A model generated the notes under the pieces. It had not been told where the DNA came from. It made no database searches and saw only the letters and a list, made by a program, of their open reading frames with translations. Of a DNA stretch of 64,000 nt, positions 1-62,796 are shown piece by piece. This stretch comes from Synechococcus sp. JA-2-3B'a(2-13). GTDB taxonomy: Bacteria > Cyanobacteriota > Cyanobacteriia > Thermostichales > Thermostichaceae. Every line of letters starts with the position of its first letter. Position 1 is the first letter of the stretch. The stretch spans positions 1,517,001 to 1,581,000 of the forward strand of contig NC_007776.1 of the NCBI RefSeq assembly GCF_000013225.1, written 5' to 3'. The position numbers and the translations under genes were made by a program.

Positions 1-1803
1 TACGCCGGCCTGACGTTGCGTCTACTGGAAGAAGCTGAGGCCAGGGTGGTGGTGCTAAACCTGCCCAGCAGCTTTGTGGTACCTCAAAACCTGGGCAACG
101 AGAACTTAGATGCCCCTCTGCGTCAGGTGGTGCAGCGCTACCCAGATCGCTTGGTCTTGGCCACCCGCAGCAGCGAGAGCTTTGGCCGCTCCGAGATTAA
201 CATCTACAACCATTTTCTGCCCTTCTCTTCTCTGCGGCTGGAGTACCTGGTGCCGCCAGAGCATGTGCAGGGGGTGGTGCAACATCGGGTAGACAGTGCC
301 GGGATCCTGCGCCAGGCCCAGTTGCGGGGGCTCTACCTGCGCCGCGACAGCCAAGAGGAGCAGATGTTCGCCTCGGTCGAGGCTCTGGCTTTTGCCAAAT
401 ACGACCCGGAGCGGGCCAGCCGCTGGTTTCGCGAGCGGGGGTTGCAGCCGATCCAATTCAACCCCCTCGGATCCCAGCACGGGATCCCCATCATCCCCAT
501 CGAACGGGTTTGCCCTCCAGCTGTTCTCCAGGCAGGATCCGGGTCTGTTGCCCCGATGATCAACCCCAGCCAAGCCTGCCGCGGCCAAGAAGGGATCCCT
601 CCCCTCGATCCCGAAGTTGCCGACCAATTGCGGGACAAAATTGTCCTGGTGGGTTTTGTGGGCGGCTACCCCGAAACCTTCCCAGTGCGGACTGCGGATG
701 GATCCCAGATTGCGGCGGTGGAGCTGCAGGCGCAAGTCCTCTCCAGCCTGCTCACCGGGGAGGTCTACCAATCCGTGCCGGGGGGGGTGGCGGTTGCGGT
801 GGTCTTGCTGCTGGGAGTGGGAACGGGACTGCTTTTGGTGCTTTATCGTCCCCCCCTACGTTCGCGTCAGCGGTGCGGAGCACTTTTGAGCCCTTGGGGC
901 TGGAAGCAACAGCAGTTTCTCCTGCGGCCTGTGGTGGGGCTTGCCGTTTACGAAGGGTGGGCTGTGGCCCAGTTTCTACTGGGGCGTTGGGTTTGGCCTC
1001 TCGTCTTGCCGGCCCTGGCCAGTGGGCTAACGGGGGTGAGCCTGCTGCTCACTTTGGTCATTGTGGAGAATCAAGAACGGCTCTTGGCCCAGCAACAGGA
1101 ACTGGAGCGCCTGCGCCGAGCCGAACAGGAGGCCGCCATTGACCAGGCTCGCAAGCTGCTCTACCGAGTAGCCACCGACATTCACGATCGCGAGCTGCAG
1201 GAGCTGAAGGTGGTGATGGACAACTTGGAGAGCTTGCAATGGCAGCAGCACCAGGGAAAAGCTCCCGATCCCACCGTCTACGACCACCTGCTCGAGCAAC
1301 TGGAGAGGATCGGACGCGGGATCCGGAATCAGCTCAACGATGTGCGCACCCTAGCCGCCAAGCTGCGCATCTCCCCCAGCTTGCGAGAGGGGTTGCATCG
1401 CGGCATCGAGATCTATCTGGACGAGCTGATCCAAGCGGGCAGCCTGACGCTGTCTGTGGAGCGCCAACTGCAACCTCTGCAGGAGCCCAACACCGGCGAG
1501 TGGTTTGATCAGCGAGAAGACATCTTGCGCTTTTTGCGGGAGGCCATCGGCAATGTCATCGCCCATGTACAACCCCCCAAAGGCAATGCTTCCTTTGTCA
1601 AGGTGTCGCTGGCCCAAACGGAGCGCCACTGCTGCCTTTCCGTGGTCAACGATGGTATCGAGTACGCTCCCGGCCTCAGCGGCGGCTACGGCAGCAAGGC
1701 CATGAACACCATCGCCCGCTATCTACCCAAGGGATCTTGGCACCGCACCCGCACCCCGGAAGGCCATACCCATGTCGAGCTGCACTGGGAGATGCCGCTC
1801 TGA
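1..1803 (+). CDS. CHASE2-domain sensor histidine kinase (5' end outside window)
   Basis: The frame is open from base 1, so the true start lies upstream. What remains is about 600 residues. The first ~255 look like the later part of a CHASE2 periplasmic sensor domain, ending in the typical VELQAQVLSSLL stretch. Membrane segments follow at about 255-278 and 305-350 (counted from base 16), then a coiled linker and a dimerisation helix with the likely phospho-acceptor His in DIHDRELQELK, which resembles the HisKA_3/NarX type more than classic HisKA. The ATPase part shows an N-box-like LREAIGN, a VVNDG turn and a GGYGSKAM glycine loop. It is inferred to be a membrane kinase sensing an extracytoplasmic signal; the ligand is unknown and no response regulator lies beside it here. 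A short dispersed repeat (859-883) encodes part of the loop between the membrane segments. Confidence 0.85.
   Translation, partial: YAGLTLRLLEEAEARVVVLNLPSSFVVPQNLGNENLDAPLRQVVQRYPDRLVLATRSSESFGRSEINIYNHFLPFSSLRLEYLVPPEHVQGVVQHRVDSAGILRQAQLRGLYLRRDSQEEQMFASVEALAFAKYDPERASRWFRERGLQPIQFNPLGSQHGIPIIPIERVCPPAVLQAGSGSVAPMINPSQACRGQEGIPPLDPEVADQLRDKIVLVGFVGGYPETFPVRTADGSQIAAVELQAQVLSSLLTGEVYQSVPGGVAVAVVLLLGVGTGLLLVLYRPPLRSRQRCGALLSPWGWKQQQFLLRPVVGLAVYEGWAVAQFLLGRWVWPLVLPALASGLTGVSLLLTLVIVENQERLLAQQQELERLRRAEQEAAIDQARKLLYRVATDIHDRELQELKVVMDNLESLQWQQHQGKAPDPTVYDHLLEQLERIGRGIRNQLNDVRTLAAKLRISPSLREGLHRGIEIYLDELIQAGSLTLSVERQLQPLQEPNTGEWFDQREDILRFLREAIGNVIAHVQPPKGNASFVKVSLAQTERHCCLSVVNDGIEYAPGLSGGYGSKAMNTIARYLPKGSWHRTRTPEGHTHVELHWEMPL
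859..883 (+). repeat. Short dispersed repeat, type A, inside the CHASE2 kinase gene
   Basis: CGTTCGCGTCAGCGGTGCGG followed by AGCAC. It forms two adjacent small stem-loops, CGC-GTCA-GCG and GTGC-GGA-GCAC. It is read here as RSRQRCGAL. Confidence 0.85.
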
Positions 1804-2172: not shown

Positions 2173-2308
2173 TTCCCCCAGAGCTTGGGGTACATTTCAA
2201 ACGGTAGCTGGGGTCTAGAAACATAAACCTAACCACCCGCTCCCTGCACACTCGCACAACTGCCTAGCGTTTGCACATCAGGTTGTAGAGAATTGTGCAA
2301 CAAAGTGA

Positions 2309-2334
2309 GGACTCCGTCCCACTATCGCGAACAG
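2309..2334 (-). repeat. Short dispersed repeat, type B
   Basis: On the minus strand: CTGTTCGCGATAGTGGGACG then GAGTCC. The second stem is GGAC-GGA-GTCC and the first is CGC-GATA-GTG with a G-T wobble. Intergenic. Confidence 0.75.
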
Positions 2335-4330: not shown

Positions 4331-4357
4331 CGTTCGCGACAGCGGGACAAAGTTCTT
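4331..4357 (+). repeat. Short dispersed repeat, variant, beside the TnpB element
   Basis: CGTTCGCGACAGCGGGACAA followed by AGTTCTT. First stem CGC-GACA-GCG; second stem GGAC-AAA-GTTC. It lies between the hydrolase start and the TnpB right end, so the guide portion of the omega-RNA overlaps it. Confidence 0.65.
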
Positions 4358-4520: not shown

Positions 4521-5610
4521 AGTCCGCATCTCCTTCCCATCCACAGTGCCCACACTTAAACGACTTACCACTGCGGTAGGATTGCGCAGGATCGGGATGG
4601 ATGTGTAAACACTTGTGACAGGTCTGCGACGTGTAGGCAGGCGGCACAAGAACCAGAGAAACCCCTGCAACTCTCGCCTTGTATTCCAGAAACTGGCGTA
4701 GCTGGTAGAACGCCCAACTGTTGGTTCTGCGCCGTTCGGCCTTGTTGCGCGGCTGTTGATTGACCCTTTCCCGGATCCCTGTCAGGTCTTCCAGGGCAAT
4801 AGCGCTGTTTGTGGTCTTTGCCCTAGAGACAATAGCTTTGGAGATGCGATGATTGACCCACGTTTGAAAGCGTCTCTCCTTGCCAGACAGCCGTTGCAAC
4901 AGTTCTCTGCATCTGCGCCGCGAACTGCGTGTGCCCTTACTGGCTTTGCGTTGGAGTACCGCCCTCAACCGGGAGTAGCGCTCTCGGACTCTGTTCAACT
5001 GCTGTCCATTCCAGTTATCTCCTTCCGATGTATGGGCAATATCTGTCCTTCCCAAGTCCACCCCGATCACCTTGTCGGTATCTTGTTGCTTGGGTGGCTT
5101 TTTCTCTACGCAAATCTGGATGTAGTAGGAGCCATCTTTGCGCTTGACCAGGGTGGCAGATTTGGGGTTGGAACCAGCCAGCATCCCACGCTGGTAGTTG
5201 CCAATGGCCAGTTCAAAGCGTTCTCTCCCTTCCACCGTGGTCAGCGACACCGTCCAGTCTTTTTGACGGAACGAAAAGATGCGAGCGTCGTAGGTAACAA
5301 AGCCGCTCTTAAACTCCTTGACGGGACGCTTTTTCTGCTTAGCCACTTTGCGGGAACCCGCTACCCGTCTGCACACCTGTTGGTCGCGTAAGCGGGACGT
5401 AGTCCTTGCCAAGTTACTGGACAAGCCAAACCGGGCTCGAATCTCGTAGTAGCAAAGGGATTGCAGCTTGACCGCGTTGACGATCTTCTCCGGCGTGTTC
5501 TGGTTGACCCAATTCAAGGCTTGGCCAAAAGCCTCCAAAGTCGCGTCCAATTTGGCGGCTTGCGACTGGGCTACCTTGAGCTTGCAGGAGACGGTCAGGA
5601 CTTGGGTCAT
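4393..5610 (-). CDS. tnpB: TnpB, IS200/IS605-type RNA-guided nuclease
   Basis: 405 residues from the ATG at 5610 (MTQVLTVSC). An in-frame extension to 5643 would run into the palindrome and is unlikely. All three RuvC motifs are seen: VIGVDLG (first Asp), AIALEDLTGI (Glu) and GDADLNGA (last Asp). The zinc ribbon CHKC...CGHC lies before the last motif. The N-terminal helix-turn-helix-like part and Arg-rich middle are complete, so the nuclease looks intact. No tnpA lies beside it, making this a tnpB-only (IS1341-like) element that would need a transposase in trans. The 3' end overlaps its omega-RNA. Between the alpha/beta hydrolase and the spermidine-synthase fusion it is an obvious insertion. 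Confidence 0.93.
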   Translation of the reverse strand: MTQVLTVSCKLKVAQSQAAKLDATLEAFGQALNWVNQNTPEKIVNAVKLQSLCYYEIRARFGLSSNLARTTSRLRDQQVCRRVAGSRKVAKQKKRPVKEFKSGFVTYDARIFSFRQKDWTVSLTTVEGRERFELAIGNYQRGMLAGSNPKSATLVKRKDGSYYIQICVEKKPPKQQDTDKVIGVDLGRTDIAHTSEGDNWNGQQLNRVRERYSRLRAVLQRKASKGTRSSRRRCRELLQRLSGKERRFQTWVNHRISKAIVSRAKTTNSAIALEDLTGIRERVNQQPRNKAERRRTNSWAFYQLRQFLEYKARVAGVSLVLVPPAYTSQTCHKCLHIHPDPAQSYRSGKSFKCGHCGWEGDADLNGANVIALLGAAVNQPRGSGLFCSLVEQSRLRATESPLRTA

Positions 5611-5640
5611 GGTTCTATTGTAACCTCGCATTCCTCCCGG

Positions 5641-5667
5641 CACTGACCCTACGGGTACAGTGCGGGG
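5641..5667 (-). repeat. IS605-type subterminal palindrome upstream of tnpB
   Basis: Minus-strand CCGCACTGTACCCGTAGGGT then CAGTG: hairpin CTG-T-ACCC-GTA-GGGT-CAG with one bulged T, the form of hairpins recognised by Y1 transposases. The same sequence recurs at about 1964-1990 and 2137-2160. It may be the left end of this element or a relic of a second one. Confidence 0.55.
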
Positions 5668-5870
5668 CTCCTGCGATTTCTAGCTGAGAGTACTGGCGGA
5701 GGGTGGCCCCCTTCCACCCGTTGGCGCACTTGAATCGAGGAACAAGGATCGGCCTTCCTCTGAGTTGGGTGATCCCAAGGGGCACCACCAAGCGGCTACA
5801 ACATCCCATCTCAAGCTTCCGGGAGAAAGTGGGGAATACTGGCAGTTGAGGGTTTTGCGGTGGGTCGGCT

Positions 5871-8955: not shown

Positions 8956-9590
8956 AATTACAGTCATTCCAAACTAGATTGAGACACTCTGATACATTTA
9001 CGCTGAACACTGCTGAACATCACTGTTCAACTATGCAGCGATAGCATTCTGTTTGTTTCCAAACAGAATGGCGGTATCCCGCAAAGCTTTGAGTAGAATA
9101 CCCAAAGCGCAGTTTCCGTGTCGTCTTACTACCAATTTTCTGCTTTGCTTTGGCTACCATGTTGGCAGACTCGAAAGTAAACAGAAAGATCAACTGGTAG
9201 TAATCCGTACTGAACATATTATACATTATTTTCAGTATAGTTGAGCTTATTATTGACTAGAGTCATGCTCCAAGCGTTCCGCGACCAACCCCAGGGAAGT
9301 TAGGAAGCCATGAAGGACGGCTGCAGACAGACTACACTGGGGCTGGGTGAGAGATGAAAACCAAATCTTTCACTGCGTCGAGGATGGGGCGAACGCCCGA
9401 CGTCGAGAATCCCTGCCCCTTGGGGCGGAGAGTATGCCAAAGTTGTTCCAAACAGCAACAAGTCCGGGCTCTCTTCTTCTCACCTGTTGCCTCAGCGTTG
9501 CCCAGCAACAAATAAGGCTCAGATCCGACGGAGATCTGGCTGAGAGGGCATTGACTTGCAGAGGAACCCGCAGAATAGCTCCACACAGGT
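8956..9590. other. Gap holding mobile element copy 1 and a GAF-gene leader
   Basis: Bases 8989-9267 are the 279-bp element. The remaining ~320 bases before the GAF protein gene contain no recognised gene or RNA; a small GGGCG-AA-CGCCC hairpin is present at about 9387-9399. Confidence 0.5.
8989..9267 (-). mobile_element. 279-bp non-autonomous element, copy 1
   Basis: Nearly identical to copies at 13667-13945 (inverted) and 49412-49714. Read on the minus strand it begins CATGACTC directly after a GGAG and ends TATCAG. There are no terminal inverted repeats; instead it has hairpins: GACT-AG-AGTC near one end, TGAACA-TCAC-TGTTCA near the other, and an 11-bp stem CATTCTGTTTG/CAAACAGAATG. It holds a 68-codon open frame (9020-9226) but no transposase. 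Unduplicated GGAG and subterminal hairpins point to mobilisation by an IS200/IS605-type Y1 transposase in trans. Confidence 0.8.
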
Positions 9591-12545
9591 ATGGTTCAGT
9601 CTGTTCCCCCTCATTCCGATAGAGCTGGGCCAATATCTCCCCTGGTGGCCCTGCAAGCAACCTTGCAGCAGATGCGGGAGCAGAGCGATGCCAACACCCT
9701 CGTTCAGCTCACGCTGGAGTATGTCAAGGCGGCGTTTGGGGCGCCGCTGATCTGGCTGGCCTTTTACGACTATCCAAATCACCAGTTGGTGGGTCAGGGG
9801 GGAGTGACCCTTCTTGAGGATCAAACCCTACTGCGGGCGGTGCATCCTCTACAGCCGGGGGAGATCCTGGAGCAGGTGGTGATCGAGCAGCGACCGATCA
9901 GCCTGCCCGACCTCTCTCAGGAACCGCGCATGGGCATTTGGCAGCGGGAGGCCAGGCGACTGGGCGGGATCCAGGGCTGTTTCATTTATCCCTTCTCGGC
10001 CTACGGCCCGCTGTCGCGAACGGCAGTGGGACGGCGGCGCTGCTTGGGGATCCTGATGTTGGGATCCCAAATGTGGGGGGTTACCACCCATGAGGACGAA
10101 AAGGCTCTCCTGGGGATTTTGCTGGGGCAGTTGGCAGCCTCTCTGCAGGAGTTGGAAAACGCTTGGCAGCAGCAGACCGAAAAGCGCCTTGAGGATCCAC
10201 TCCTGAGGTTGGGAACAGCGATGCGCCAGGTGAGATCCCTGCAGGAACGGGTCAGCCTGGTGAGGCAGGAGTTACAGTCTTTTCTGGGCGCTGTCCACAT
10301 TCAGGTGTATTGGCACGAGCGCGGCCAGGGGCAATTCGTCCCCCATGGAAGCGCCCCCAAAGCTGTTGGCAACAGCGGGGGGACGGAGTCCTCTCAGCCC
10401 CCTGTTCCCAAAAGGGCTAAAGTCGGAGCAGGGCCAACAGGGGAGGTCAGCCTTTCGCTGCGGGAATTGGGGGACATGTACTACACCCTCGCCGATGGCC
10501 AGGTGGTGGTGGGCGGCACAGGGACGACTCGCTCTGAGGTTCCCCCCAAGCTGATGCAGCAGTTGCGGGCCCAGGCCGTTTTGGCGGCCCCGATTTTGCT
10601 GGAAAAGGATCTGCTGGGGTTCATCTGGGTGCAATCGGATGTGCCCCGTACCTGGCAAGCCGCTGAGCGACAGTTGGTAGCTGCTGCCGCCAATGGGTTG
10701 GCCTTGGCTGCCCCCATAGAAAATCTGGATCGCCGCATTCGCCAGTTGGCCGATGACCAAGAGTTTGTGCAACAGGTGGGCCGCTCGCTTTACAACCCGG
10801 CGGAGCTGCAACAGGCTCTCCAGCAAGCCGTTGTCGGCCTGGCCCAGCGCCTGAAAGTCGGTGCAGTGGCCGTGTTGACGGTGGATCCCGACAGCCCCAT
10901 CCCCCGCCTCTTCTACGAGTACCGCAGCGTCGCGGAGCAACAGGGCAAGCAGACTTTGCCGCAGCAGTTCAGCCCTCTGAGCGACCAGGACTGGCAGGAT
11001 CTCATGCGCAGCGAGGTGGTGGTGGCAGAAAACTACGACCAAGATCTGCGCCTGCTCTCTTGGCGGCAGGAACTGGCAGGAGTTCGTTCCCTGATGCTGA
11101 CCCACACCGGGGTCGGCGGTACCGCCACCACACCTGTGGAAGGGCTGCTCTTGGTGTTGCATCCCCAGCTACGGGCCTGGAGCCGGGAAGAGCGGCAACT
11201 GCTGCGGGGGATTGCCCAACAGGTGGGGGTGATCCTGCGGCAAATTCGGTCAGAACAACGCCGGCAACGACAAGAGCAATTGCTCAAGGGCCTGATCACC
11301 ACTTGTTCAACCTTGCCAAACTTGGCCACCTTGTCAGATCTGTACACCACTACCACTCGACAGACGGCCCAATTGCTGGGGATCCCTCTGGCGCTCATGG
11401 TTAGTTGGCAGCCGGGGGAGAGCCGGGCTCAGCTCCAGGGGCCTTTTACTACCGCTGCCGGGACGGAGACCGGCTCCACCGAGATCGACCTGCAAGATCC
11501 CCTACTGGCCTACGCGCTGCAGTCGGCAGAACCTCTGCCGCTCACCCAGGAGCAGATCCCCCCTGCCAGCCGCACTTGGCTCAGTCGCGTCAGCGGTGCG
11601 GAGCACTTTGCTGCCGGCCTGGGATCCTGGCTGCTGGTGGCGCTGGGGGAGACAAACTCCTCGCAGGCGGGAGCTTTGGGAGTTTTGATCTTGGGGGCAG
11701 AAGCGGGCAAGGTTTGGGATCCCGACGAGCGGGCGGCTGTGATGTTGATCGCCCAGACCTGCGGCTGGACGCTGCGGCGCTTGCTCTGGATGCAAACTTT
11801 GCAAGAGCAGCAGGAGGTGCTCAGGGAGTTGAACTGGTACAAACACCGCCGCCTGATGGACATGCAGAATGCCCTTCTGGACAGCCTGCGCCGCCTGGGT
11901 CAGGTGCCGGAGATTCCCGGAGACGAAGCCACCCGCTGGCAAAAGGTGGTGGAGATCGGCAGAGGGCTGCGGGATCTGACCGTCTCCACAGGGCCGTTGT
12001 TGCAGTCGGAAACTTGGCAGGTGCAGCCGCAGTTGCGGTCGGTGCCCTTGGCAACCTTGGTGCGCAAAAGCCTACGCCGAGTGGAGGCCCTGACCCAAAA
12101 ACGCAAGTTATGGCCGCGGGCCCATGGGGACATGAGCATTGCCGTCCAGGGGGATCCCGAACGACTGGAGATGGTGCTCTGGGAGGTGTTGACAGCCGCT
12201 ATTTTGCGCAGCCCGGAAGGGGGGCGGCTGGATCTGTGGAGCCAAGCCAGCGTTCGCGATAGCGATGCGGAGCCCTTTGGCTATGCAGAGCTGCTGGTGG
12301 TGGATCAGGGCAGCTTCGACCCTCACCTGATGGCCGCCCTTCAGTTGGATCCGAACCAGGTGATCTACGCGGATCCTCTGCTCAAGTCGCCTCTATCGGT
12401 AAGTCCTGGTCTGGAACTCAGCCTGTGTCAACGGGTGGTGCAGCGGATGGGGGGCCAGCTCTCCTTTTACCTCTCTTCCGATGGGCGTTGTGTCTCTCGG
12501 CTGCTCCTGCCGATGGGCAGCGACGAGCCCCATCCCCCTGGGTAG
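9591..12545 (+). CDS. Multi-GAF sensor protein with a kinase-like C-terminus
   Basis: 984 residues, no membrane segment. Reading in order there are about four GAF-like units (roughly 25-175, 220-380, 395-550, 570-745), then a helical linker and a region shaped like a HATPase (about 830-980; MVLWEVLTAAILRSPEGGRL as N-box, LLVVDQGS, then LELSLCQRVVQRMGGQLSFY). The dimerisation helix reads KHRRLMDMQNALLDSL and lacks a clear H-E/D phospho-acceptor, so kinase activity is uncertain. It is probably a cytosolic sensor; a GAF cysteine for bilin is not obvious. Three short dispersed repeats interrupt it at about 10365, 11584 and 12251. It lies between two inverted mobile element copies. Confidence 0.8.
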   Translation: MVQSVPPHSDRAGPISPLVALQATLQQMREQSDANTLVQLTLEYVKAAFGAPLIWLAFYDYPNHQLVGQGGVTLLEDQTLLRAVHPLQPGEILEQVVIEQRPISLPDLSQEPRMGIWQREARRLGGIQGCFIYPFSAYGPLSRTAVGRRRCLGILMLGSQMWGVTTHEDEKALLGILLGQLAASLQELENAWQQQTEKRLEDPLLRLGTAMRQVRSLQERVSLVRQELQSFLGAVHIQVYWHERGQGQFVPHGSAPKAVGNSGGTESSQPPVPKRAKVGAGPTGEVSLSLRELGDMYYTLADGQVVVGGTGTTRSEVPPKLMQQLRAQAVLAAPILLEKDLLGFIWVQSDVPRTWQAAERQLVAAAANGLALAAPIENLDRRIRQLADDQEFVQQVGRSLYNPAELQQALQQAVVGLAQRLKVGAVAVLTVDPDSPIPRLFYEYRSVAEQQGKQTLPQQFSPLSDQDWQDLMRSEVVVAENYDQDLRLLSWRQELAGVRSLMLTHTGVGGTATTPVEGLLLVLHPQLRAWSREERQLLRGIAQQVGVILRQIRSEQRRQRQEQLLKGLITTCSTLPNLATLSDLYTTTTRQTAQLLGIPLALMVSWQPGESRAQLQGPFTTAAGTETGSTEIDLQDPLLAYALQSAEPLPLTQEQIPPASRTWLSRVSGAEHFAAGLGSWLLVALGETNSSQAGALGVLILGAEAGKVWDPDERAAVMLIAQTCGWTLRRLLWMQTLQEQQEVLRELNWYKHRRLMDMQNALLDSLRRLGQVPEIPGDEATRWQKVVEIGRGLRDLTVSTGPLLQSETWQVQPQLRSVPLATLVRKSLRRVEALTQKRKLWPRAHGDMSIAVQGDPERLEMVLWEVLTAAILRSPEGGRLDLWSQASVRDSDAEPFGYAELLVVDQGSFDPHLMAALQLDPNQVIYADPLLKSPLSVSPGLELSLCQRVVQRMGGQLSFYLSSDGRCVSRLLLPMGSDEPHPPG
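10365..10393 (+). repeat. Short dispersed repeat, type B, inside the GAF gene
   Basis: GGCAACAGCGGGGGGACGGA then GTCC; the second stem GGAC-GGA-GTCC is intact and the first is degenerate. It is translated as NSGGTESS within a Ser/Pro-rich spacer. Confidence 0.55.
11584..11606 (+). repeat. Short dispersed repeat, type A, inside the GAF gene
   Basis: GTCGCGTCAGCGGTGCGGAG then CAC; both stems intact. Translated in frame as RVSGAEHF. Confidence 0.8.
12251..12273 (+). repeat. Short dispersed repeat, degenerate, inside the GAF gene
   Basis: CGTTCGCGATAGCGATGCGG then AGC. First stem CGC-GATA-GCG intact, second stem decayed. Translated as SVRDSDAEPF in the ATPase-like part. Confidence 0.6.
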
Positions 12546-12569: not shown

Positions 12570-13553
12570 TTAGGGGGACAAGGTTCTGAGCAGCCAAAAC
12601 AGGGGCAGTAGAGACAGTAGGCCGCGATCCAGCCGCCGCAGTTGTAGGCGGTGCCAGCGCAGGGGATGGTCTGGGCCGGTCAGCCCACGGGCCTGCATTG
12701 CCATAGCCGTCTGTTCGGCACGCAGGAGCAAGTTTTCAAAAAAGCGCTCCACCAAGGCCAGCAGGGTTTGCATCCCGCCCCGGAAACTTAGGGATCCCCA
12801 GCGCACATCCCGAGTTCGCACCGCCCGCGCCAAGTTTTGCACCTCTTCCATCACCAAAGGCAGAAAGCGCAGCGCCAAGGTGAGGGTGAGAATTACTTCG
12901 GCAATCGGCCATCTCCAACGCTTGAGAGGCTGCAACCATTGGCCGATCCCCTCGGCAATTTCTTCGGGGGCCGTGGTCAACAGAAACAAATGGGTGGCGT
13001 AGAGCAACGTAAAAATGAGGGTGCCCAGCCGCAGCGCCACCGATAGAGAACGGCGGGAGACCTGAAAGGTTCGCCCCAACAGGGAAAATTGAACAAGGCG
13101 GTAGCGGTAAGGGGTTTGCCAAGCACGGGTTTGCTCCCGCCAGGCACGGTCTGGGGATCCCTGTTCTACGGCCAAGTCGAAGTGCCCTGCACCGCTAACG
13201 GGAACAGCGGGGATCCCGGTCAGCCCATAGCCCACCACCTGCATATCCTGCCGTTGCGGTTGGGGAAAAACCCCCAATCCATCCGGCGCCAAGCTGGTGA
13301 TCCCAAAGGTGAGCAGGCTCAGGGCCAGCACCAGGGAGAGTTGGCCCGACCAAACCCGGCGCGGCAGACGGGCCGCCACAGTTAGCAGCAGAAGAGCCAC
13401 CACCACGGCCAAGCGCCAACCATTGCCGGCCAAAATGGGGCTGAGGAGAAAGCTGAGCAGCCAGGCCAGCTTAACCCGCGGATCCAGGCAATGTAGCCAG
13501 GTGCGAGGCTCTTCCAGATAAATCCCCAGCGGGGCATTCCGCAGAATATCCAC
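12570..13553 (-). CDS. Energy-coupling factor transporter T subunit (EcfT/CbiQ family)
   Basis: 327 residues with about five membrane helices. Near the C-terminus it carries ARTRDVRWG and MAMQARGL, the two Ala-Arg-Gly-type coupling motifs through which EcfT contacts the ECF ATPases. The N-terminus (MDILRNAPLGIYLEEPRTWL) is typical of cyanobacterial members. No A or S subunit is nearby, as is usual for group II ECF systems where T and A genes are scattered, so the vitamin or metal carried cannot be told. It converges with the GAF gene (24-base gap). Confidence 0.9.
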   Translation of the reverse strand: MDILRNAPLGIYLEEPRTWLHCLDPRVKLAWLLSFLLSPILAGNGWRLAVVVALLLLTVAARLPRRVWSGQLSLVLALSLLTFGITSLAPDGLGVFPQPQRQDMQVVGYGLTGIPAVPVSGAGHFDLAVEQGSPDRAWREQTRAWQTPYRYRLVQFSLLGRTFQVSRRSLSVALRLGTLIFTLLYATHLFLLTTAPEEIAEGIGQWLQPLKRWRWPIAEVILTLTLALRFLPLVMEEVQNLARAVRTRDVRWGSLSFRGGMQTLLALVERFFENLLLRAEQTAMAMQARGLTGPDHPLRWHRLQLRRLDRGLLSLLPLFWLLRTLSP

Positions 13554-13666
13554 AACAGTTGAGAAGGAAGCAGACTATACCCCTTAAAAGGGCGGGACCG
13601 AGAACTCCGTCCCCGTAGCGCGGTCGCAGCAGCGTTGCGGAGCAATAACAGCTGGCAGCAAGGGAG

Positions 13667-13945
13667 CATGACTCTAGTCAATAATAAGCTCAACTATACT
13701 GAAAATAATGTATAATATGTTCAGTACGGATTACTACCAGTTGATCTTTCTGTTTACTTTCGAGTCTGCCAACATGGTAGCCAAAGCAAAGCAGAAAATT
13801 GGTAGTAAGACGACACGGAAACTGCGCTTTGGGTATTCTACTCAAAGCTTTGCGGGATACCGCCATTCTGTTTGGAAACAAACAGGATGCTATCGCTGCA
13901 TAGTTGAACAGTGATGTTCAGCAGTGTTCAGCGTAAATGTATCAG
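13667..13945 (+). mobile_element. 279-bp non-autonomous element, copy 2 (inverted)
   Basis: Starts CATGACTC after GGAG (13663-13666) and ends TATCAG two bases beyond the stop codon of zipN. It differs from copy 1 by few bases; one falls in the 11-bp stem (CAGGATG for CAGAATG) and changes Glu to Gly in the 68-codon frame at 13708-13914. Inverted relative to copies 1 and 3. Confidence 0.8.
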
Positions 13946-13947
13946 AG

Positions 13948-16038
13948 CTAGAGCCGTTCCACCAGACGGGTGGAGCCCGACTGGGCGGCGACCCATCCCC
14001 CGGGCGCGCCATCTCGCTCGATGCGCAGCCAGACGGGCACCTGTCCCTCCCCAGCCTGCACCTCCACCACCCGCAGCAGGGCTTGGCGTGGGGCTGTCCC
14101 GACAATGGCTCCCGTCAGGCTGGGTTGCTGGCGAATGTTGAGGCCATCGTTGGAGACCACCCGCACCTGTTGTACTCCTTGCCACTCCGCCAGAGGGCCA
14201 GTTAGCTCAGGCGGGGGAGCGGGTTCTGTCTGGCCGGGATTGTCGTTCGCGGAGGCGTCGCGTAGCGATATGTCAACCGGCGGCTGCTCAATTTGCACCT
14301 GGGGTTGCTCCAGCGGTGGTGCCGGCGGCGGCGTGAAGAGGCCCCGCAGCATTTGCCAGATGACCAGCAGGGAGAGAATGCCCACACCAACTACCCCGGC
14401 CACTCGCGTCAGCGGTGCGAAGCCCACGGCGGGAAGGGCAGGACGCTTACGGGATCCCAAGCGGCTGCGGCGGTAACGCTCCACATCCTGCAAACCGATC
14501 GCGCCAGCGGACCTTAGGCCCTGGACTCCGTCCCCCTGAGGGGAACGGTCTTGGGCGCGTTCGCGACAGCGGTGCGGAGCACTAGAACTCTCATCCGCAA
14601 GAGCAGAGACGCCCGCCTTGGGGGTGCTGCGGTAAGAGGGCAAATCCGAGAGGCGCGGGGGTTCTGGCACCCCCTGTTGCCAAGGGGCGGGTGGGCGATA
14701 CAATTCCTGGGTTGGCTCAGGACCCACCACGGCAGGCAAATGAGGTGGGGGATGGGGGGCTTGTTCGCGACAGCGGTGCGGAGCACTGGGAGAGAGCATC
14801 CCTGCCGGCGGGTCTTCGCGGCTGGGCATTTCGTCCAGGTAAGCTTGTACTTGGGGGTTGTCGAAGTAGGCTTGCAACGTCACTTGGGCGGCTTCCAGAC
14901 CGCGGAACTCCGGGAACACCTCCTCCTGAAACCATTTTTCTGTGAAGCGGCACAGACCCGGCAGATGGTCGGGAGAACCGGCGGAGTGTTCTTCGATAAA
15001 CTGCAAGGCCTCTACTTCTTGGGTGGAGCGCAGATGGGCGAGCGCGTCTTCGGTCTGCCCCAGCAACAGACTACAGATGGCCTGCTCCAGATGCACATCC
15101 TGCCGCTGCGCCAGACGAGCCAGGTAGCCGCGAGCACGCCGCACCAGAGCCGGGCGGTTTTCCAGATAACCTGCCGCCAGCAACACCTGCACGGCCAAGT
15201 AGGCGGCCACCATCGAGGGACGCTCAGCCTCCCGCTCGAACAACTCCTGCTGTTCTTTGAGGGTGAGGTGGCGACGTACCCGTTGGATAAAGCGCAGGAA
15301 ATCTTCGGTGCTGAGGCCAGAGCCATCTTGCCCCATCCCCTCGATGCCGCCCCGTTCGTCCAGCATGGCTTTGAGGAGAGCCAGTCCCTGCTGCCGCTCC
15401 CCATTCGCATCAGCGGTGCGGAGCACAAGAGTCTCTCTTCCGGCTGGGGCGGGAGCATGGGCCTCGTGGCTGAGGAGTTGCAAAATGCGATAGGGACGCA
15501 GCTTGCCCAAATCGATACGGATCTCCGCTTGCATCTGCGGAAAGGCCTGATACTCCTCCAGCTCCGCCAAGCCCGCCTGTAGGGAACGCGCCGCCTCTTC
15601 ATAGGATCCCTGTTGCCAGGCTTCTCGACCCAGTTCCAGACGAGCGATGGCCCGCGCCAAAATGGCATCGGAACGAGCAGGGTGGCCCTGCTCCAACAGG
15701 TGTTGAGCCAAGTCCAACGCAGCCTGGTACTCTCCGGCTTCGCAATACAAGCACAGCACTCCCGGTAGGTGCGCCTCCTCCACCGTCAAGGTGGGATCCG
15801 TTGGCATGAGGTGTTCGTCGTAGTTTCGTCGTGCCTCAGGGTTCAGCAGCACAGAAGCCGCCTCTTGGATCATCTGGGCGCGAGCTTCCACAGCCTGTGG
15901 CGAGAACCCCGACAGCCAGGAGCGCTCGCCCGGCTTGAGATCGATCCGCTCCCGGTATGCCTGTTCAATCTGATGCTCATCTGCCCGTGCCGACAGCATC
16001 AAAACCCGATAATAGTCGAGGGGCACCCGCACCGTCAT
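13948..16038 (-). CDS. zipN: Cell-division protein ZipN/Ftn2 (ARC6-like), unusual C-terminus
   Basis: 696 residues. The N-terminus is the divergent J-domain of ARC6/ZipN (PLDYYRVLMLSARADEHQIEQAY ... NYDEHL, read in pieces), followed by helical repeats (about 90-430) with the family stretch LPGLCRFTEKWFQEEVFP. A Pro/Ser-rich linker runs to one membrane helix at about 560-585 (VGVGILSLLVIWQMLRGLF). ZipN anchors FtsZ at the midcell membrane. Normally a DUF4101/IMS domain follows the helix; here the last ~75 residues read as an SH3b-like domain (GLNIRQQPSLTGAIVGTAP, VWLRIERDG, GGWVAAQ). Several short dispersed repeats lie in the gene (14403, 14523, 14557, 14763, 15402), mostly in the linker. Confidence 0.88.
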   Translation of the reverse strand: MTVRVPLDYYRVLMLSARADEHQIEQAYRERIDLKPGERSWLSGFSPQAVEARAQMIQEAASVLLNPEARRNYDEHLMPTDPTLTVEEAHLPGVLCLYCEAGEYQAALDLAQHLLEQGHPARSDAILARAIARLELGREAWQQGSYEEAARSLQAGLAELEEYQAFPQMQAEIRIDLGKLRPYRILQLLSHEAHAPAPAGRETLVLRTADANGERQQGLALLKAMLDERGGIEGMGQDGSGLSTEDFLRFIQRVRRHLTLKEQQELFEREAERPSMVAAYLAVQVLLAAGYLENRPALVRRARGYLARLAQRQDVHLEQAICSLLLGQTEDALAHLRSTQEVEALQFIEEHSAGSPDHLPGLCRFTEKWFQEEVFPEFRGLEAAQVTLQAYFDNPQVQAYLDEMPSREDPPAGMLSPSAPHRCREQAPHPPPHLPAVVGPEPTQELYRPPAPWQQGVPEPPRLSDLPSYRSTPKAGVSALADESSSAPHRCRERAQDRSPQGDGVQGLRSAGAIGLQDVERYRRSRLGSRKRPALPAVGFAPLTRVAGVVGVGILSLLVIWQMLRGLFTPPPAPPLEQPQVQIEQPPVDISLRDASANDNPGQTEPAPPPELTGPLAEWQGVQQVRVVSNDGLNIRQQPSLTGAIVGTAPRQALLRVVEVQAGEGQVPVWLRIERDGAPGGWVAAQSGSTRLVERL
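14250..14275 (-). repeat. Second-family dispersed repeat inside zipN
   Basis: On the minus strand ATATCGCTACGCGACGCCTC then CGCGAA, related to 8209-8234. It encodes residues of the linker beyond the membrane helix. Confidence 0.5.
14403..14426 (+). repeat. Short dispersed repeat, degenerate, inside zipN
   Basis: CTCGCGTCAGCGGTGCGAAG then CCCA. First stem intact, second partly lost. Lies just before the membrane helix codons. Confidence 0.6.
14523..14547 (-). repeat. Short dispersed repeat, type B with altered first stem
   Basis: Minus strand CGTTCCCCTCAGGGGGACGG then AGTCC: first stem CCCC-TCA-GGGG, second GGAC-GGA-GTCC. Both arms of the first stem changed together compared with CGC/GCG copies. 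Confidence 0.75.
14557..14582 (+). repeat. Short dispersed repeat, type A, inside zipN
   Basis: CGTTCGCGACAGCGGTGCGG then AGCACT; both stems intact. Only ten bases after the previous inverted copy. Confidence 0.8.
14763..14786 (+). repeat. Short dispersed repeat, type A, inside zipN
   Basis: GTTCGCGACAGCGGTGCGGA then GCAC; both stems intact. Read on the gene strand as SAPHRCRE. Confidence 0.8.
15402..15426 (+). repeat. Short dispersed repeat, type A, inside zipN
   Basis: CATTCGCATCAGCGGTGCGG then AGCAC; stems CGC-ATCA-GCG and GTGC-GGA-GCAC. Read as [10 protein letters not shown] on the gene strand. Confidence 0.8.
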
Positions 16039-16059: not shown

Positions 16060-16084
16060 GTTCGTGCCAGCGGGACGGAGTCCT
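16060..16084 (+). repeat. Short dispersed repeat, type B, upstream of zipN
   Basis: TGTTCGTGCCAGCGGGACGG then AGTCC, 22 bases before the zipN start codon, so it probably lies in its leader. Second stem GGAC-GGA-GTCC intact. Confidence 0.7.
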
Positions 16085-18311: not shown

Positions 18312-18922
18312 CCATGGTTCGCGGCAACCCCAACCCCGACCCCAGGGATCCCCAGCAAGAGCTGCCGGTGGTGGATGAGCGTTTTGAACAGTTGAGCGCC
18401 TACTTGGATGGGGAATTGTCGTCTCAAGAGGCGCGGCAGGTGGAAGATTGGCTGGCCAGCGATCCTCAGGCGCGGCAACTGTACAGCCAACTGGCAGCTC
18501 TGCAGGCCGGTTTGGCCAATCTCAAGGCCCCAACCTTGAACTCCACCCAGACGGAGCTGTTGATTAGCCGTGTGTTCGCTGAGCTGGATCGGAGGCCGGT
18601 GCTCGACCTGGGCTGGCGGCAACGTAAGGGCACCCCTTGGGGACGGGTGGCAGCGGCTGTAGTGGCCTTGGCAGGGGCGGGCTGGGTGGGATGGCGTTGG
18701 TCTCATCCCCAGCCTTTGGTATCGCTGGAAGATCCGCCGGTGCGCGTGGCCATCGTGCCTGCCTCTGCTCGTGTTGCCCAACGCTATCTTTTCGAGGCGG
18801 GGCAAAAACAAGATGCCTACTCGATTTTGTTTGAGGCAATGCCCGACCGTGGATCTCGCTCCGCCAACGGGACCGGAGCCGTTCGCATCAACGGGACGGA
18901 GTCCTTGGTGGGCTGGGAATGA
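18308..18922 (+). CDS. Membrane-anchored anti-sigma factor
   Basis: 204 residues. The N-terminal ~75 residues (FEQLSAYLDGELSSQEARQV, SDPQARQLY) match the RseA/anti-sigma N-terminal helical domain that holds an ECF sigma factor; one membrane helix lies at about 115-135 (VAAAVVALAGAGWVGW); the rest is periplasmic. No zinc HxxxCxxC motif. Start either ATG 18308 (overlapping the sigma stop) or ATG 18314. The extreme C-terminus is made by a short dispersed repeat (18880-18904) that gives VRINGTES, which probably replaced or extended the original tail. Confidence 0.85.
   Translation: MTMVRGNPNPDPRDPQQELPVVDERFEQLSAYLDGELSSQEARQVEDWLASDPQARQLYSQLAALQAGLANLKAPTLNSTQTELLISRVFAELDRRPVLDLGWRQRKGTPWGRVAAAVVALAGAGWVGWRWSHPQPLVSLEDPPVRVAIVPASARVAQRYLFEAGQKQDAYSILFEAMPDRGSRSANGTGAVRINGTESLVGWE
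18880..18904 (+). repeat. Short dispersed repeat, type B, at the 3' end of the anti-sigma gene
   Basis: CGTTCGCATCAACGGGACGG then AGTCC. Second stem GGAC-GGA-GTCC intact, first stem lost one pair. Confidence 0.7.
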
Positions 18923-18957: not shown

Positions 18958-19587
18958 GTGGAAAAAGCAGTTCGCTGGGCTTGTGGGCTAGGAGTCTGCC
19001 TTTGGCTATGCAGTCTGGGATCCCTGTCGGCCCAGGCAGATCCCAGCAGTAGCCATCTGGCAGCGCCGTTCGCGCCGGCGGGACGGAGTCCGAAGCAGTT
19101 GCACTCCTCTCCCAGTGGACAGGAGCCTGCCCCCCAGCCCACAAACCTGCCTTCACCCGGATCCCGTCTCACCCCTGCCCCCGATCAAAACCAATGGGCC
19201 CCTCCCAAGACGGAGCTATCGCCCTTTCCGGACTTCCCCCTTCTCAAGGAGTTGGATCCGCCCCCGCCAAGCTTGGCCGACCTGGGCATCCATTGGGATC
19301 GCTTGGCCCTGCTGCCGGATCCCGAGCTGGCAGAGGAAATGGATGTGGAGTTCAGCCGCCGTCTAGCCCGCCTAAACCGGCAAATTGCCAACCAACAAGA
19401 GCGCCTCTACCGCCTTTTGCAAACCTGGGACTCCGACGAGGCCGATATCCGCCAAATTCAGGCCCAACTGAGCCAGTTGCGGACAGAACGGGATCGCCTA
19501 GCTCTGGAACACCTGTTGATGCTGCGGCAGCTGCAAGAGAACTTCGCCCTACCTCTACCCGACCGCTCGGCTGCCAGCTCTCCCTGA
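18958..19587 (+). CDS. Exported Spy/CpxP-like helical protein
   Basis: About 210 residues from the GTG at 18958, chosen because GAGGA lies 7 bases upstream and it puts a clean signal peptide first (AVRWACGLGVCLWLCSLGSL, cut near AQA). After a Pro/Ser-rich stretch comes a long amphipathic helical pair (about 110-195; FSRRLARLNRQIANQQERLY, DIRQIQAQLSQLRTERDRL) of the type in Spy, CpxP and CnrX-like periplasmic stress proteins. Its place directly after an ECF sigma and its anti-sigma supports a role as periplasmic sensor or chaperone in that circuit. A short dispersed repeat (19067-19091) contributes FAPAGRSP to the linker. Confidence 0.7.
   Translation: MEKAVRWACGLGVCLWLCSLGSLSAQADPSSSHLAAPFAPAGRSPKQLHSSPSGQEPAPQPTNLPSPGSRLTPAPDQNQWAPPKTELSPFPDFPLLKELDPPPPSLADLGIHWDRLALLPDPELAEEMDVEFSRRLARLNRQIANQQERLYRLLQTWDSDEADIRQIQAQLSQLRTERDRLALEHLLMLRQLQENFALPLPDRSAASSP
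19067..19091 (+). repeat. Short dispersed repeat, type B, inside the Spy-like gene
   Basis: CGTTCGCGCCGGCGGGACGG then AGTCC; stems CGC-GCCG-GCG and GGAC-GGA-GTCC both intact. Confidence 0.8.
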
Positions 19588-38640: not shown

Positions 38641-38665
38641 GTTTGCGTTAGCGGTGGGGAGCACT
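38641..38665 (+). repeat. Short dispersed repeat, degenerate
   Basis: GTTTGCGTTAGCGGTGGGGA then GCACT; intergenic, 24 bases after the aldo/keto reductase stop. The second stem has one mismatch. Confidence 0.65.
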
Positions 38666-38785: not shown

Positions 38786-41380
38786 ATGGCCATCCCAGAT
38801 GCATTCGCGTCAGCAGTGCGGAGCACTTTGACCCATAAAGCAGACAGGCCAAGGGATCCGGCTGACCAGAATGGGCCCACAGCGCCTTCTCAGGCGGGAT
38901 CCCTGATTCTCCACGTGGGGGGCATGAGTTGTGCCGGCTGCGTTCGCACCGTTGAGCAGGCCCTGCTGAGACAGCCGGGGGTGGTTAAGGCCAGCGTTAA
39001 CCTGGTTACCGAGTCGGCCCTTGTGGAGTTTGCCCCTGGGATCCGGCCCGACCCGCAGCACCTGGCCCAGATTTTGACAGAGGCAGGGTTTCCCAGCCGC
39101 TACAGTTCAGAGGGTGAGGCCCTCTCCGGCGGGAGTTCCGTTCGCGTCAGCGGTGCGGAGCACTCTCAAGATCCCTCTTCCCCTCCCGGTGGGTGGGAAG
39201 AAGCCTTGGATGTGCCTGCGGATCCCCTCTCTCGGCAGCGACAGCAGACCCGACACCACATTCGCCAAGCGCTCACCGCCGCTTTTTTGCTGCTGATTTC
39301 TGCCGCCGGACACTTGGATCTCTTCGCCCGTCTGGGCTTGCCCCTCCTTAATGATGTCTGGCTGCACTGGGGCTTGGCGACCTTGACTTTTGTCGGCCCG
39401 GCTCGCGGCATTGTCCTGGATGGTTGGAGAGGGGCACGGCGGCTGGCCCCCAACATGAACACCTTGGTTACCTTGGGATCCGGATCGGCCTACCTGGCCA
39501 GTCTGGTGGGGTTGTTGGCCCCTCAGGTGGGCTGGGAGTGCTTTTTCGACGAGCCCGTCATGATGCTCAGCTTCATCCTGTTGGGACGGGCCTTGGAACA
39601 GCACAGCCGCCTGCGGGCGGCCAGCAGCCTGCAATCGCTGGTGAGCTTGTGTCCCAGTTTGGCTCGGCGGGTTCAGCTTGCAGAGAAGGCGGGATCTCTG
39701 GCTTCCAGCCCAGAGGGGAACCTGGATCTGGGATCCCAAACCGGAGAATGGTGCCCTGTCGAACAGGTGCGAGTGGGGGATTGGCTCCAAGTGCGGGCCG
39801 GCGAACAGATCCCGGTGGATGGAGAAGTCATTGCCGGCCAGGCCACGGTCAACGAGGGGATGCTGACAGGGGAACCCTTGCCGGTGCTGAAACAAGCGGG
39901 GGATCCCGTGGTGGCGGGAACGCTGAACCAATCGGGGTTGCTGCTGTGCCGGGCGACGCGCACCGGGAAAGACACCACCTTGGCCCAGATCATCCGCCTG
40001 GTGGAAGAGGCCCAAGCTCGCAAGGCCCCCATCCAAGGGATAGCCGACCAGGTGGCGGGCTACTTCACCTATGGGGTGGTCACGCTGGCCATTCTCACCT
40101 TTGGGTTCTGGTACTGGATTGGGATCCCGCTTTGGGGGAGCGGCGGTGCGGAGCACTTCGTCCTGGCGGGGTTCAGCCTGCACGCCCATCTGCATCTGGG
40201 TGACCATCCCCCTCACCCCACACCCCTGCTCAGCAGCCTCAAGATGGCCATTGCCGTTTTGGTGGTGGCCTGCCCCTGTGCTTTGGGGTTGGCTACGCCG
40301 ATGGCCATCCTGGTGGGTACTGGCTTGGGAGCCGAGCGGGGTTTGCTCATCCGAGGGGGAGATGTTCTGGAGAAAGCCCATCGCTTGCAAACGGTGGTCT
40401 TCGACAAAACCGGCACCCTCACCCAAGGGGATCCCCACCTGACGGACTGTCTCAGCCTTGACCCCTCCCTGGATCCCAATCGCCTACTCCAACTGGCGGC
40501 CACAGTGGAAAGCGGCACTCGCCACCCTCTGGCGCAAGCCATTTTGCAAGCCGCCCGCACCCAGGGTTTGCCGTTGCTCTCCGCCGGCGAGTTTCAAACC
40601 CAACCGGGGATAGGGGTTGCTGCCCAAGTGGAAGGGCAGGCAGTGGTATTGGGATCCCTGGATGGGCTGGCTGCTTTGGGGATCCCGCTGTCCCAGGAGA
40701 CCCAGGCCCAGGCCGAGGCGCTACTGGCAGCCGGCAAAACGGTGGTGGGCGTGGCTGTAGAGGGATCCCTGGTGGGGCTGCTGGCAGCCCAGGATCCCTT
40801 GCGGCCCGATGCGCAGGCAACGCTGCAACAGCTCCGGAAAATGGGCCTGCAGGTGGTTTTGCTAACCGGCGATCGGGCGGAGGTGGCCCACCAGGTGGCT
40901 GAGGCTCTGCAAGTGCCCGGGATCCGCGTTATCGCCGAGGTTCACCCGGCAGACAAAGCTCAAGTCATCCGCGACCTGCAGACCCAAGGCCAGAGAGTTG
41001 CCATGGTGGGAGATGGCATTAACGACGCTCCGGCTTTGGCCCAAGCCGATGTGGGCATCGCCCTGCACTCAGCCACTGATGCGGCCTTAGAAACCGCCGA
41101 TATCATCCTCATGCGCAACCGCCTCTGGGATGTGGTGGAAGCTATCCGCCTCAGCCGCGCCACCTTCCGCAAGATCCAGCAAAATCTCCTCTGGGCTGTC
41201 GGCTACAACCTGGTAGGGATCCCGGTGGCAGCAGGCGTGCTCCTACCCCCCTTTGGCATTGGGCTTAGCCCGGCAATCGCTGGGGGTCTCATGGCCTTGA
41301 GTTCCCTCAGTGTAATCCTCAATTCACTCCTCTTGAGGCGAACTTTTGTACCCCGTAGATCTTCGAGTAGCCGCAGCTAA
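38786..41380 (+). CDS. Copper-type P1B ATPase (CtaA/PacS-like)
   Basis: 864 residues. Metal-binding domain GMSCAGC (46-52), actuator loop TGEPLPV, membrane ion site CPC in [12 protein letters not shown] (near 496), phosphorylation site DKTGTLT (Asp near 540), HP motif in ESGTRHPLA, and [10 protein letters not shown] near 742. It pumps Cu(I) or a like ion across the plasma or thylakoid membrane; PacS and CtaA feed plastocyanin and cytochrome oxidase. Which of the two it is cannot be decided. Three dispersed repeats sit in the frame: at the extreme N-terminus (residues ~6-14), in a linker after the HMA domain (38139 + 1000, i.e. 39139) and in an outer loop before the CPC helix (40138). Confidence 0.93.
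38802..38826 (+). repeat. Short dispersed repeat, type A, at the P-ATPase N-terminus
   Basis: CATTCGCGTCAGCAGTGCGG then AGCAC. Read as FASAVRST. It begins 16 bases after the start codon. Confidence 0.8.
39139..39163 (+). repeat. Short dispersed repeat, type A, in the P-ATPase linker
   Basis: CGTTCGCGTCAGCGGTGCGG then AGCAC, a perfect consensus copy identical to 859-883. Read as VRVSGAEH. Confidence 0.85.
40138..40156 (+). repeat. Partial short dispersed repeat in the P-ATPase
   Basis: GAGCGGCGGTGCGGAGCAC: second stem GTGC-GGA-GCAC kept, first stem mostly missing. Read as GSGGAEHF in a loop between membrane helices. Confidence 0.65.
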
Positions 41381-49411: not shown

Positions 49412-49714
49412 CTGATACATTTACGCTGAACACTGCTGAACATCACTGTTCAACTATGCAGCGATAGCATTCTGTTTGTTTCCATTCGCGTTAGCGGGAC
49501 GGAGTCCAAACAGAATGGCGGTATCCCGCAAAGCTTTGAGTAGAATACCCAAAGCGCAGTTTCCGTGTCGTCTTACTACCAATTTTCTGCTTTGCTTTGG
49601 CTACCATGTTGGCAGACTCGAAAGTAAACAGAAAGATCAACTGGTAGTAATCCGTACTGAACATATTATACATTATTTTCAGTATAGTTGAGCTTATTAT
49701 TGACTAGAGTCATG
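49412..49714 (-). mobile_element. 279-bp non-autonomous element, copy 3, carrying a 24-bp insertion
   Basis: Same element as 8989-9267, in the same orientation, but 303 bases because a short dispersed repeat has landed in the loop of its 11-bp hairpin (49484-49507). It sits inside an ABC ATPase gene after GGAG (plus-strand CTCC at 49715-49718). The host frame is restored if the element is removed with GGAG kept once, so the target is not duplicated. Confidence 0.87.
49484..49507 (+). repeat. Short dispersed repeat, type B, inserted in element copy 3
   Basis: ATTCGCGTTAGCGGGACGGA then GTCC, exactly 24 extra bases compared with copy 1 at 9060/9061. Because TCC occurs on both sides, the insert could equally be 21 bases with a 3-bp TCC duplication. 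Stems CGC-GTTA-GCG and GGAC-GGA-GTCC. Confidence 0.93.
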
Positions 49715-49887
49715 CTCCCGCCCCACAACGATCTTCTGGGCATTGCCGCCAGAATAGCGGCGGGCCGTCAACACGGCCGTCGGCTGGCTTTTCTTTAGAA
49801 AGGGACATTCAGGCCCTTTCTTGAGCTCCCCGGCATCTGGGATCCTCAAGTTCTGAAAACTCCACTGCCCTCCATTGCCGCAACCGG

Positions 49888-62253: not shown

Positions 62254-62796
62254 TCAGGGATCGGCAAGGCGCAGGGAACGGGCTATAGCTTCCACATCTC
62301 GGTCATAGCGCTCGCGCCGGCTGGCCGGGTACACGAACTCAAAGCCAGCTTGCAGCGAAGGGCGGACAACTGTTTTGAGATAGAAAATCCGCTGGCCAAA
62401 GGGCTCCGCACCGCTGACACGAACGGGCTCGTAGCCGGAGACCACAAAGAAATCCCGGCCAACAGCTTGGTAAGTAACCCGGCGTTGGTTTTCCCGGCTG
62501 CGGCGAAGTTCTTCCTGCAGGGCGCTGGCGGGCGTTGCTTGAAAAATGTTGTACCCACCCCAAACGCGCAGCTCAGCCCCGTCTTGACCGAGGAACACTT
62601 GGCCGTCGCCATTGTCGGATTCCCCTTGCGGGATAAAGTCTGCCGGGTAGTCGATGCGGTAGCCGAAACGGGCATTGAGATAGGGCCGGAAACCGGCTTG
62701 GGCAACGGGAAGGGCGGGGGCGGGAGCAATGACGGGGATCCCCGCTCCTAGGATCAGTCCGGCAAGCAGACAAGCTAGGCGAGCAGCAGACTTCAT
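62254..62796 (-). CDS. Exported hypothetical protein
   Basis: 180 residues with a signal peptide (LACLLAGLILGAGIPVIAPA). The mature part opens with ARFGYRIDYPADFIPQGESD, a pattern common in cyanobacterial secreted proteins that start with a Y.I.YP segment, then LRVWGGYN and RESRENQRRV-like helices, ending VEAIARSLRL. Not a named family to me. A short dispersed repeat (62402-62424) codes VRVSGAEPF in the middle of the mature domain. Confidence 0.7.
   Translation of the reverse strand: MKSAARLACLLAGLILGAGIPVIAPAPALPVAQAGFRPYLNARFGYRIDYPADFIPQGESDNGDGQVFLGQDGAELRVWGGYNIFQATPASALQEELRRSRENQRRVTYQAVGRDFFVVSGYEPVRVSGAEPFGQRIFYLKTVVRPSLQAGFEFVYPASRRERYDRDVEAIARSLRLADP
62402..62424 (-). repeat. Short dispersed repeat inside the exported protein gene
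   Basis: Minus strand CGTTCGTGTCAGCGGTGCGG then AGC. First stem CGT-GTCA-GCG (one wobble), second partly broken. Read in frame as VRVSGAEP. Confidence 0.7.

Follow-up and report, generated by a model that had tools for sequence, protein, structure and literature searches.

A 24-nt double-hairpin repeat of the cyanobacterial SDR kind in Synechococcus sp. JA-2-3B'a(2-13), recently inserted at many sites

A short repeat dispersed through the genome of the hot-spring cyanobacterium Synechococcus sp. JA-2-3B'a(2-13) from Yellowstone can be added to the cyanobacterial small dispersed repeats (SDRs) as a new member, and its recent insertion is shown at many sites as a net gain of 24 bp. The features that it shares with SDRs are its length of 24 nt, its 197 copies, 47 pairs of filled and empty sites, compensation in its second stem and nesting. 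On balance the repeat is probably a very small, non-autonomous mobile element of this kind, which would travel as folded single-stranded DNA with the help of a factor acting in trans. The window analysed is a stretch of 64,000 nt (G000:C1:1517001-1581000) of a genome that forms one contig of 3,046,682 bp. DNA was sampled as stretches from this host genome (860 kb), from G004 (786 kb) and from the relative G001 (800 kb of a genome of 2,932,766 bp).

The repeat unit is exactly 24 nt, TTCGCGNNAGCG-N4-GNA-N4'-T, or written out TT-CGC-GNNA-GCG-N4-GNA-N4'-T, a length set both by the clean insertions and by the 24-nt period of tandem arrays. The 197 copies are the unique scored copies in the 860 kb of host DNA. 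Allowing up to three mismatches, the window holds 13 matches of the GTGC type (0.01 expected) and 10 of the GGAC type (0.00 expected), and the two stem-2 classes listed in the initial annotation both occur far above chance, at positions that it had given correctly to within 1-2 bases. Its description of nearly all copies as two abutting mini-hairpins holds for most, but the copies at 10365 and 40138 have stem 2 only: GCAACAGCGGGG precedes the stem-2 motif of the former in place of an in-register stem 1, and the latter has only GTGCGGAGCAC at 40146. The GTGC and GGAC classes stand, but further classes lie inside the window (5383, 9997-10020 (-), 14246), and the second loop, said to stay GGA, is GNA and not always GGA. 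The copy with CCCC-TCA-GGGG as stem 1 is present, at 14522-14545 (-). The features of the window are as follows.

861..884 (+), element with GTGC arms, within a gene
2308..2331 (-), element with GGAC arms, intergenic
4333..4356 (+), decayed element, GGAC-AAA-GTTC
5383..5406 (+), element, GGAC-GTA-GTCC, in an IS-like gene; the other copies of that repeat are empty
8987..9271 (+), 285-bp repeat lacking the element; the site is empty at 9061/9062
9997..10020 (-), element, GGCC-GTA-GGCC; the G001 site is empty
11584..11607 (+), element with GTGC arms, in the GAF/histidine-kinase gene 9591-12545
12253..12276 (+), element, ATGC-GGA-GCCC, whose loop in G004 holds a second, nested element
13181..13204 (-), element, GTGC-AGG-GCAC
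13623..13646 (+), element, TTGC-GGA-GCAA
13663..13947 (-), inverted copy of the 285-bp repeat, lacking the element
13948..16038 (-), host gene for an ARC6/Ftn2-like division protein of 696 aa, whose linker took in several elements in frame
14246..14269 (+), element with TCGC-GTA-GCGA arms; relatives have an empty site
14403..14426 (+), decayed element, GTGC-GAA-GCCC
14498..14521 (+), decayed element with GACC-TTA-GGCC arms
14522..14545 (-), element, stem 1 compensated (CCCC-TCA-GGGG), stem 2 GGAC-GGA-GTCC
14560..14583 (+), element with GTGC-GGA-GCAC arms, inside the ARC6/Ftn2-like gene
14764..14787 (+), element with GTGC arms, a clean 24-nt insertion common to G004 and missing in G001, G002 and G003
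15404..15427 (+), element with GTGC arms and a single stem-1 change
16061..16084 (+), element with GGAC arms
18882..18905 (+), element with GGAC arms
19069..19092 (+), element with GGAC arms
38642..38665 (+), partly decayed element, GTGG-GGA-GCAC
38804..38827 (+), element with GTGC arms, in the P-type ATPase gene 38786-41380
39141..39164 (+), element with GTGC arms, in the same P-type ATPase gene (38786-41380)
49412..49719 (+), copy of the 285-bp repeat that contains the element
49485..49508 (+), element with GGAC arms, cleanly inserted (24 nt) into the 285-bp repeat, of which the other window copies are empty
62400..62423 (-), element, GTGC-GGA-GCCC

The 285-bp repeat is non-coding, and its three window copies (8987-9271, 13663-13947 (-), 49412-49719) are identical or nearly so; G001 has many more copies, in 285-bp forms and in element-carrying forms of ~308 bp. 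Elsewhere in the host genome, 13 identical GGCC-type units stand in a tandem array at G000:C1:2805440-2805752, with further short tandem arrays at 2368228 and 2594331 of the same contig.

Covariation was assessed in copies picked on stem 1 alone, all other positions being free. Four stem-2 pairs were found in 73/82 of these copies in the host, 53/70 in G004 and 27/32 in G001, compared with 2.4% of random places. The stem-2 arms comprised GGAC, GTGC, GGCC, GCGC, TCGC, TTGC and rarer types, with 10-12 paired types in the host and G004 and six in G001; because at least seven arm types occur among stem-1-picked copies, descent from only two ancestral sequences is refuted. Among 102 distinct 24-mers standard pairs filled 94% of pair cells (79% when shuffled), and changes on both sides of a pair were found in 107 cells against 39 +/- 4.5 in the shuffled background, a number that 0/500 shuffles reached. 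Control structures slid along the sequence dropped to 17-52% paired cells. Stem 2 therefore beats both shuffles and slid controls, independent variation of its arms was not seen, and the initial proposal that paired arms change together is borne out for this stem. It hardly applies to stem 1: among copies picked on stem 2 this was CGC/GCG in 127/172, and just one of the remaining 45 was fully re-paired, apart from a CCC/GGG subfamily, which rules out a first stem that covaries freely. Stem 1 is nearly invariant, and CCC/GGG, its rarer compensated state, characterises the subfamily TTCCCGNNAGGG-TGCC-GKA-GGCA-T and is also found with other stem-2 arms.

One-step departures in stem 2 of resident copies were broken in 33 cases and G-U in 26, and there were three lone fully compensated variants (GGGC/GCCC, GACC/GGTC, AGCC/GGCT). 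The compensated states are mostly differences fixed between mobile subfamilies, so that independent compensation events are modest in number. Since resident copies decay while the multiplying sequences stay paired, selection would act on movement and not on site function, and the fold appears to be selected for spread rather than for a job at each site. The earlier suggestion that the folded form matters for spread or function is thus supported by covariation and fixed loops, with spread the favoured of the two; the same evidence strongly suggests that the fold would be needed in movement.

The loops were scored in 288 copies with the loop positions free. Loop 1 was GNNA in 87% and loop 2 GNA in 92% (background 7%), a C-G pair closed the triloop in 287/288 copies (background 35%), and base 3 of the tetraloop was a pyrimidine in 88%, so loop 1 is not of the RNA GNRA type. 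DNA minihairpins that combine a GNA or GNNA loop with G-C pairs have been described as exceptionally stable and as resistant to nucleases (PMC4686876), and both loops of the element match these ultra-stable motifs (GNNA, C-GNA-G). They do so together on one strand only, which is why the active form would be that DNA strand. Against the favoured explanation it must be counted that single-strand folding energy is modestly better than that of shuffles (z about -1.3 to -1.7) and that the loop motifs could be inherited from the founder sequence of each subfamily.

Direct comparison of genomes gave the evidence of mobility. When host, G004 and G001 DNA (280, 202 and 163 kb) was aligned, 29, 13 and 19 indels measured exactly 24 bp, with 0-4 each of 22, 23, 25 and 26 bp; nearly all of the 24-bp indels were this repeat. 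The 47 filled/empty site pairs are unique, and several have the support of a third genome. Insertions in the ARC6/Ftn2-like gene that are common to the host and G004 are missing in G001, G002 and G003, and G002 carries an insertion of its own in that gene, with 24 nt added in frame. One IS sequence with flanks ~98% identical was found with and without the element (event 30), a 190-bp flank was seen both filled and empty at 100% identity (event 35), and of the 285-bp repeats in the window those at 8987-9271 and 13663-13947 are uninterrupted, while the third is split by the copy at 49485-49508. The element has thus also entered other repeats, namely IS elements and the 285-bp repeat, as well as loops of its own kind.

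The 47 unique empty sites define a target consensus C(34/47)-Y-G(35/47)^A(34/47), or CYG^A, and no target-site duplication was detectable across the 47 insertion events. The TCCA flanking the 49485 copy was considered as such a duplication and is explained by the end of the GTCC arm followed by A. In 77% of pairs the base that follows the core is not the one at the empty site, whereas other flank positions differ in roughly 5-30%; usually one junction base is exchanged, in most cases A to T. Copies of the TTCCCGNNAGGG-TGCC-GKA-GGCA-T subfamily have entered other copies at GG^A within the loop, a nesting that arises because the CGG^A target is present in the element's own loop.

Of the 197 copies, 105 lie in predicted genes, 75 are intergenic and 17 are at edges, genes having been called by a simple codon-usage script rather than a full gene finder. 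With coding sequence making up ~84% of the DNA and intergenic sequence ~16%, intergenic copies are over-represented. All six reading frames are used, the commonest being one sense frame (40/105) that encodes D/V-R-V/A-S-G-T/A-E-S-L. Neighbouring copies in the three genomes shared orientation in 120/160 cases at 40-1000 bp and in 52/99 at 1-5 kb. Reading frame was rejected as the cause of this clustering, since spacing modulo 3 is flat and intergenic-only pairs are also biased (11:2); pairs in the same gene were both sense in 11 cases and both antisense in 11. Arms and loop bases, too, are more often alike between nearby neighbours than between random pairs, and orientation and likeness together point to local, strand-specific deposition. 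A bias by replication strand was rejected too, the relation of orientation to GC skew being weak and significant in one genome of three (r 0.28, p 0.01; 0.18, p 0.12; 0.03, p 0.8); this weak relation counts against the favoured explanation. No published description of the loop-motif match, the RVT_1 absence (below) or the orientation bias of neighbours was found in the accessible literature.

From these sequence patterns we infer that the element may move in a strand-specific manner through single-stranded DNA. Its active form would be a single DNA strand with both hairpins folded and carrying the ultra-stable loop motifs. The folded strand would be bound by a trans-acting factor and joined by it to target DNA that is itself single-stranded, perhaps where replication leaves gaps of ~1 kb; there the folded core would be copied as an insertion. 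Only well-folding copies would seed new copies, which would give rise to the compensated arm changes, and copies in genes would be tolerated because 24 nt amounts to eight added codons. A more specific proposal, put forward tentatively, is that a 24-nt single strand of two ultra-stable minihairpins spreads without reverse transcriptase to the same strand of nearby single-stranded gaps, where it would be copied in as a folded bulge; if true, this would be a DNA movement unlike known transposition.

Other routes have been weighed against the folded single strand. Elhai et al. in 2008 reportedly proposed an RNA intermediate for the Nostoc SDRs, and a short folded RNA might likewise be joined to or copied into DNA here: RNA of the GGAC and GTGC types folds into this pair of hairpins too, with energies of -7.3 to -7.5 kcal/mol, and about half of the copies lie in genes and would be transcribed. 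It is nevertheless unlikely, as no match to the reverse transcriptase RVT_1 was found in six genus genomes and loop 1 is mostly G-N-Y-A and not the RNA-stable GNRA. Movement by an IS200/IS605-type Y1 transposase, with the element as a stripped-down REP/REPIN relative, is conceivable but doubtful; it is one possible form of the single-stranded route favoured here, and the confidence placed in the two overlaps. All six genus genomes have Y1 genes, but so does G008, which gave no hit with the repeat model. The short oriented target without duplication and the two hairpins would suit such an enzyme, whereas the mere 2 nt before hairpin 1 leave no room for the usual guide. One target base is usually exchanged, and this exchanged junction A misfits textbook Y1 insertion, a point that counts against the favoured explanation as well. 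The TnpA/TnpB element of the host does have copies at its ends, but it may be a mere landing site. The host's single full-length Y1 gene is at G000:C1:544340-544702; this tnpA and its tnpB have GCGC- and GGCC-type elements at their ends (L160 1380-1480, 3150-3200), and the tnpA stop codon falls within an element.

Two further readings were weighed. Compensated arms might come from mutation and not from selection, through polymerase template switching that perfects imperfect inverted repeats (quasipalindrome correction), in stems that are indeed short and close together and of which three copies show lone compensated variants. Broken copies are, however, common and persisting (33/59 single changes), and the fixed loops, the closing pair and the insertion itself would be left unexplained; this origin is improbable. 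That the repeats are host features kept for an RNA or protein job (terminator, mRNA stabiliser, linker peptide) is still harder to credit and very improbable, for presence and absence vary between close relatives at dozens of sites and all six frames are used, even if the intergenic excess (75/197 vs ~16% of DNA) and the favoured sense frame (40/105) speak for it.

Among known systems the closest are SDR1-8 of Nostoc punctiforme, above all SDR5, which Elhai et al. reportedly placed with the others in a size class of 21-27 nt in 2008. The element resembles them in this size class, dispersed copies, compensatory changes, nested copies, minitransposon insertion and recent mobility. With REP/REPIN sequences and their RAYT (Y1) it shares short hairpin repeats, high copy number and presumed single-stranded movement, but it has no unpaired GTAG or CGTC tag, with (CY)G-T-T lying 5' of hairpin 1, is often in genes (105/197) and packs two side-by-side hairpins into 24 nt. 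Rickettsia palindromic elements also insert in frame into protein-coding genes, but they are single palindromes of ~100 nt or longer. Cyanobacterial MITEs are likewise non-autonomous and of high copy number, and the element rides inside such repeats; it is far smaller, with neither terminal inverted repeats nor detectable target duplication. IS200/IS605 derivatives insert without duplication 3' of an intact fixed tetranucleotide; the element shows no duplication and an oriented target, CYG^A, but usually exchanges the A. A derivative of a group II intron or retroelement would go with a reverse transcriptase in the genome, and RVT_1 was not found in the six genus genomes.

It has been suggested that SDRs may be the smallest mobile elements on record, and to our knowledge the mode of their movement has so far been unsolved. 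The element offers a usable system for this question, with hundreds of copies, dozens of empty sites, several arm-swapped subfamilies and relatives elsewhere among the cyanobacteria. It also leads to a concrete prediction, namely that what moves would be a DNA strand folded into GNNA and GNA minihairpins and that no reverse transcriptase would be involved. It also represents a steady supply of in-frame 8-codon insertions into proteins.

Covariance-model matches were obtained in 30/194 cyanobacterial genomes. With a less strict cut-off, genomes of one other family gave as many as 34 matches each, and in that family the element interrupts a repeat, GGTTGGGTTG^AGGAACGAAACCC, again at G^A. In Geitlerinema/Baaleninema it is mostly at TCG^ATCGA, and on a Kovacikia plasmid a related element is exactly at GCG^ATCGC (HIP1). 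The latter matches the insertion place of Nostoc SDR5, between HIP1 nucleotides 3 and 4 (PMC4390886). The window's genome differs in being nearly without HIP1 (24 GCGATCGC per Mb), with CYG^A as target instead; GGGATCCC is abundant there at 1,313 per Mb and is the dominant octamer of Synechococcus JA-2-3B'a and JA-3-3Ab (PMC4390886). The element is probably SDR5-like, judged by insertion position, in a lineage nearly without HIP1. A HIP1-interrupting 24-mer of Nostoc and Anabaena plasmids, AACTGCTTGCAGCAGCGCTTCGCT, was weighed as a candidate for the published SDR5; its predicted RNA fold is not a double hairpin. Near-identical 24-nt inserts in Nostoc and Anabaena plasmids, A[A/T]CTGCTTGCAGCAGCGCTTCGCT, split HIP1 as GCG^ATCGC (L233 23178, L235 7075) and are likely a Nostoc SDR.

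Other repeats were seen in the window. A family of ~35 bp (CCCGCACTGTACCCGTAG...) lies around an IS-like gene at 1958-1992, 2132-2164 and 5634-5669, and a gene pair at 41659-42549 and 42947-43831 is a tandem duplication with stretches 72-93% identical.
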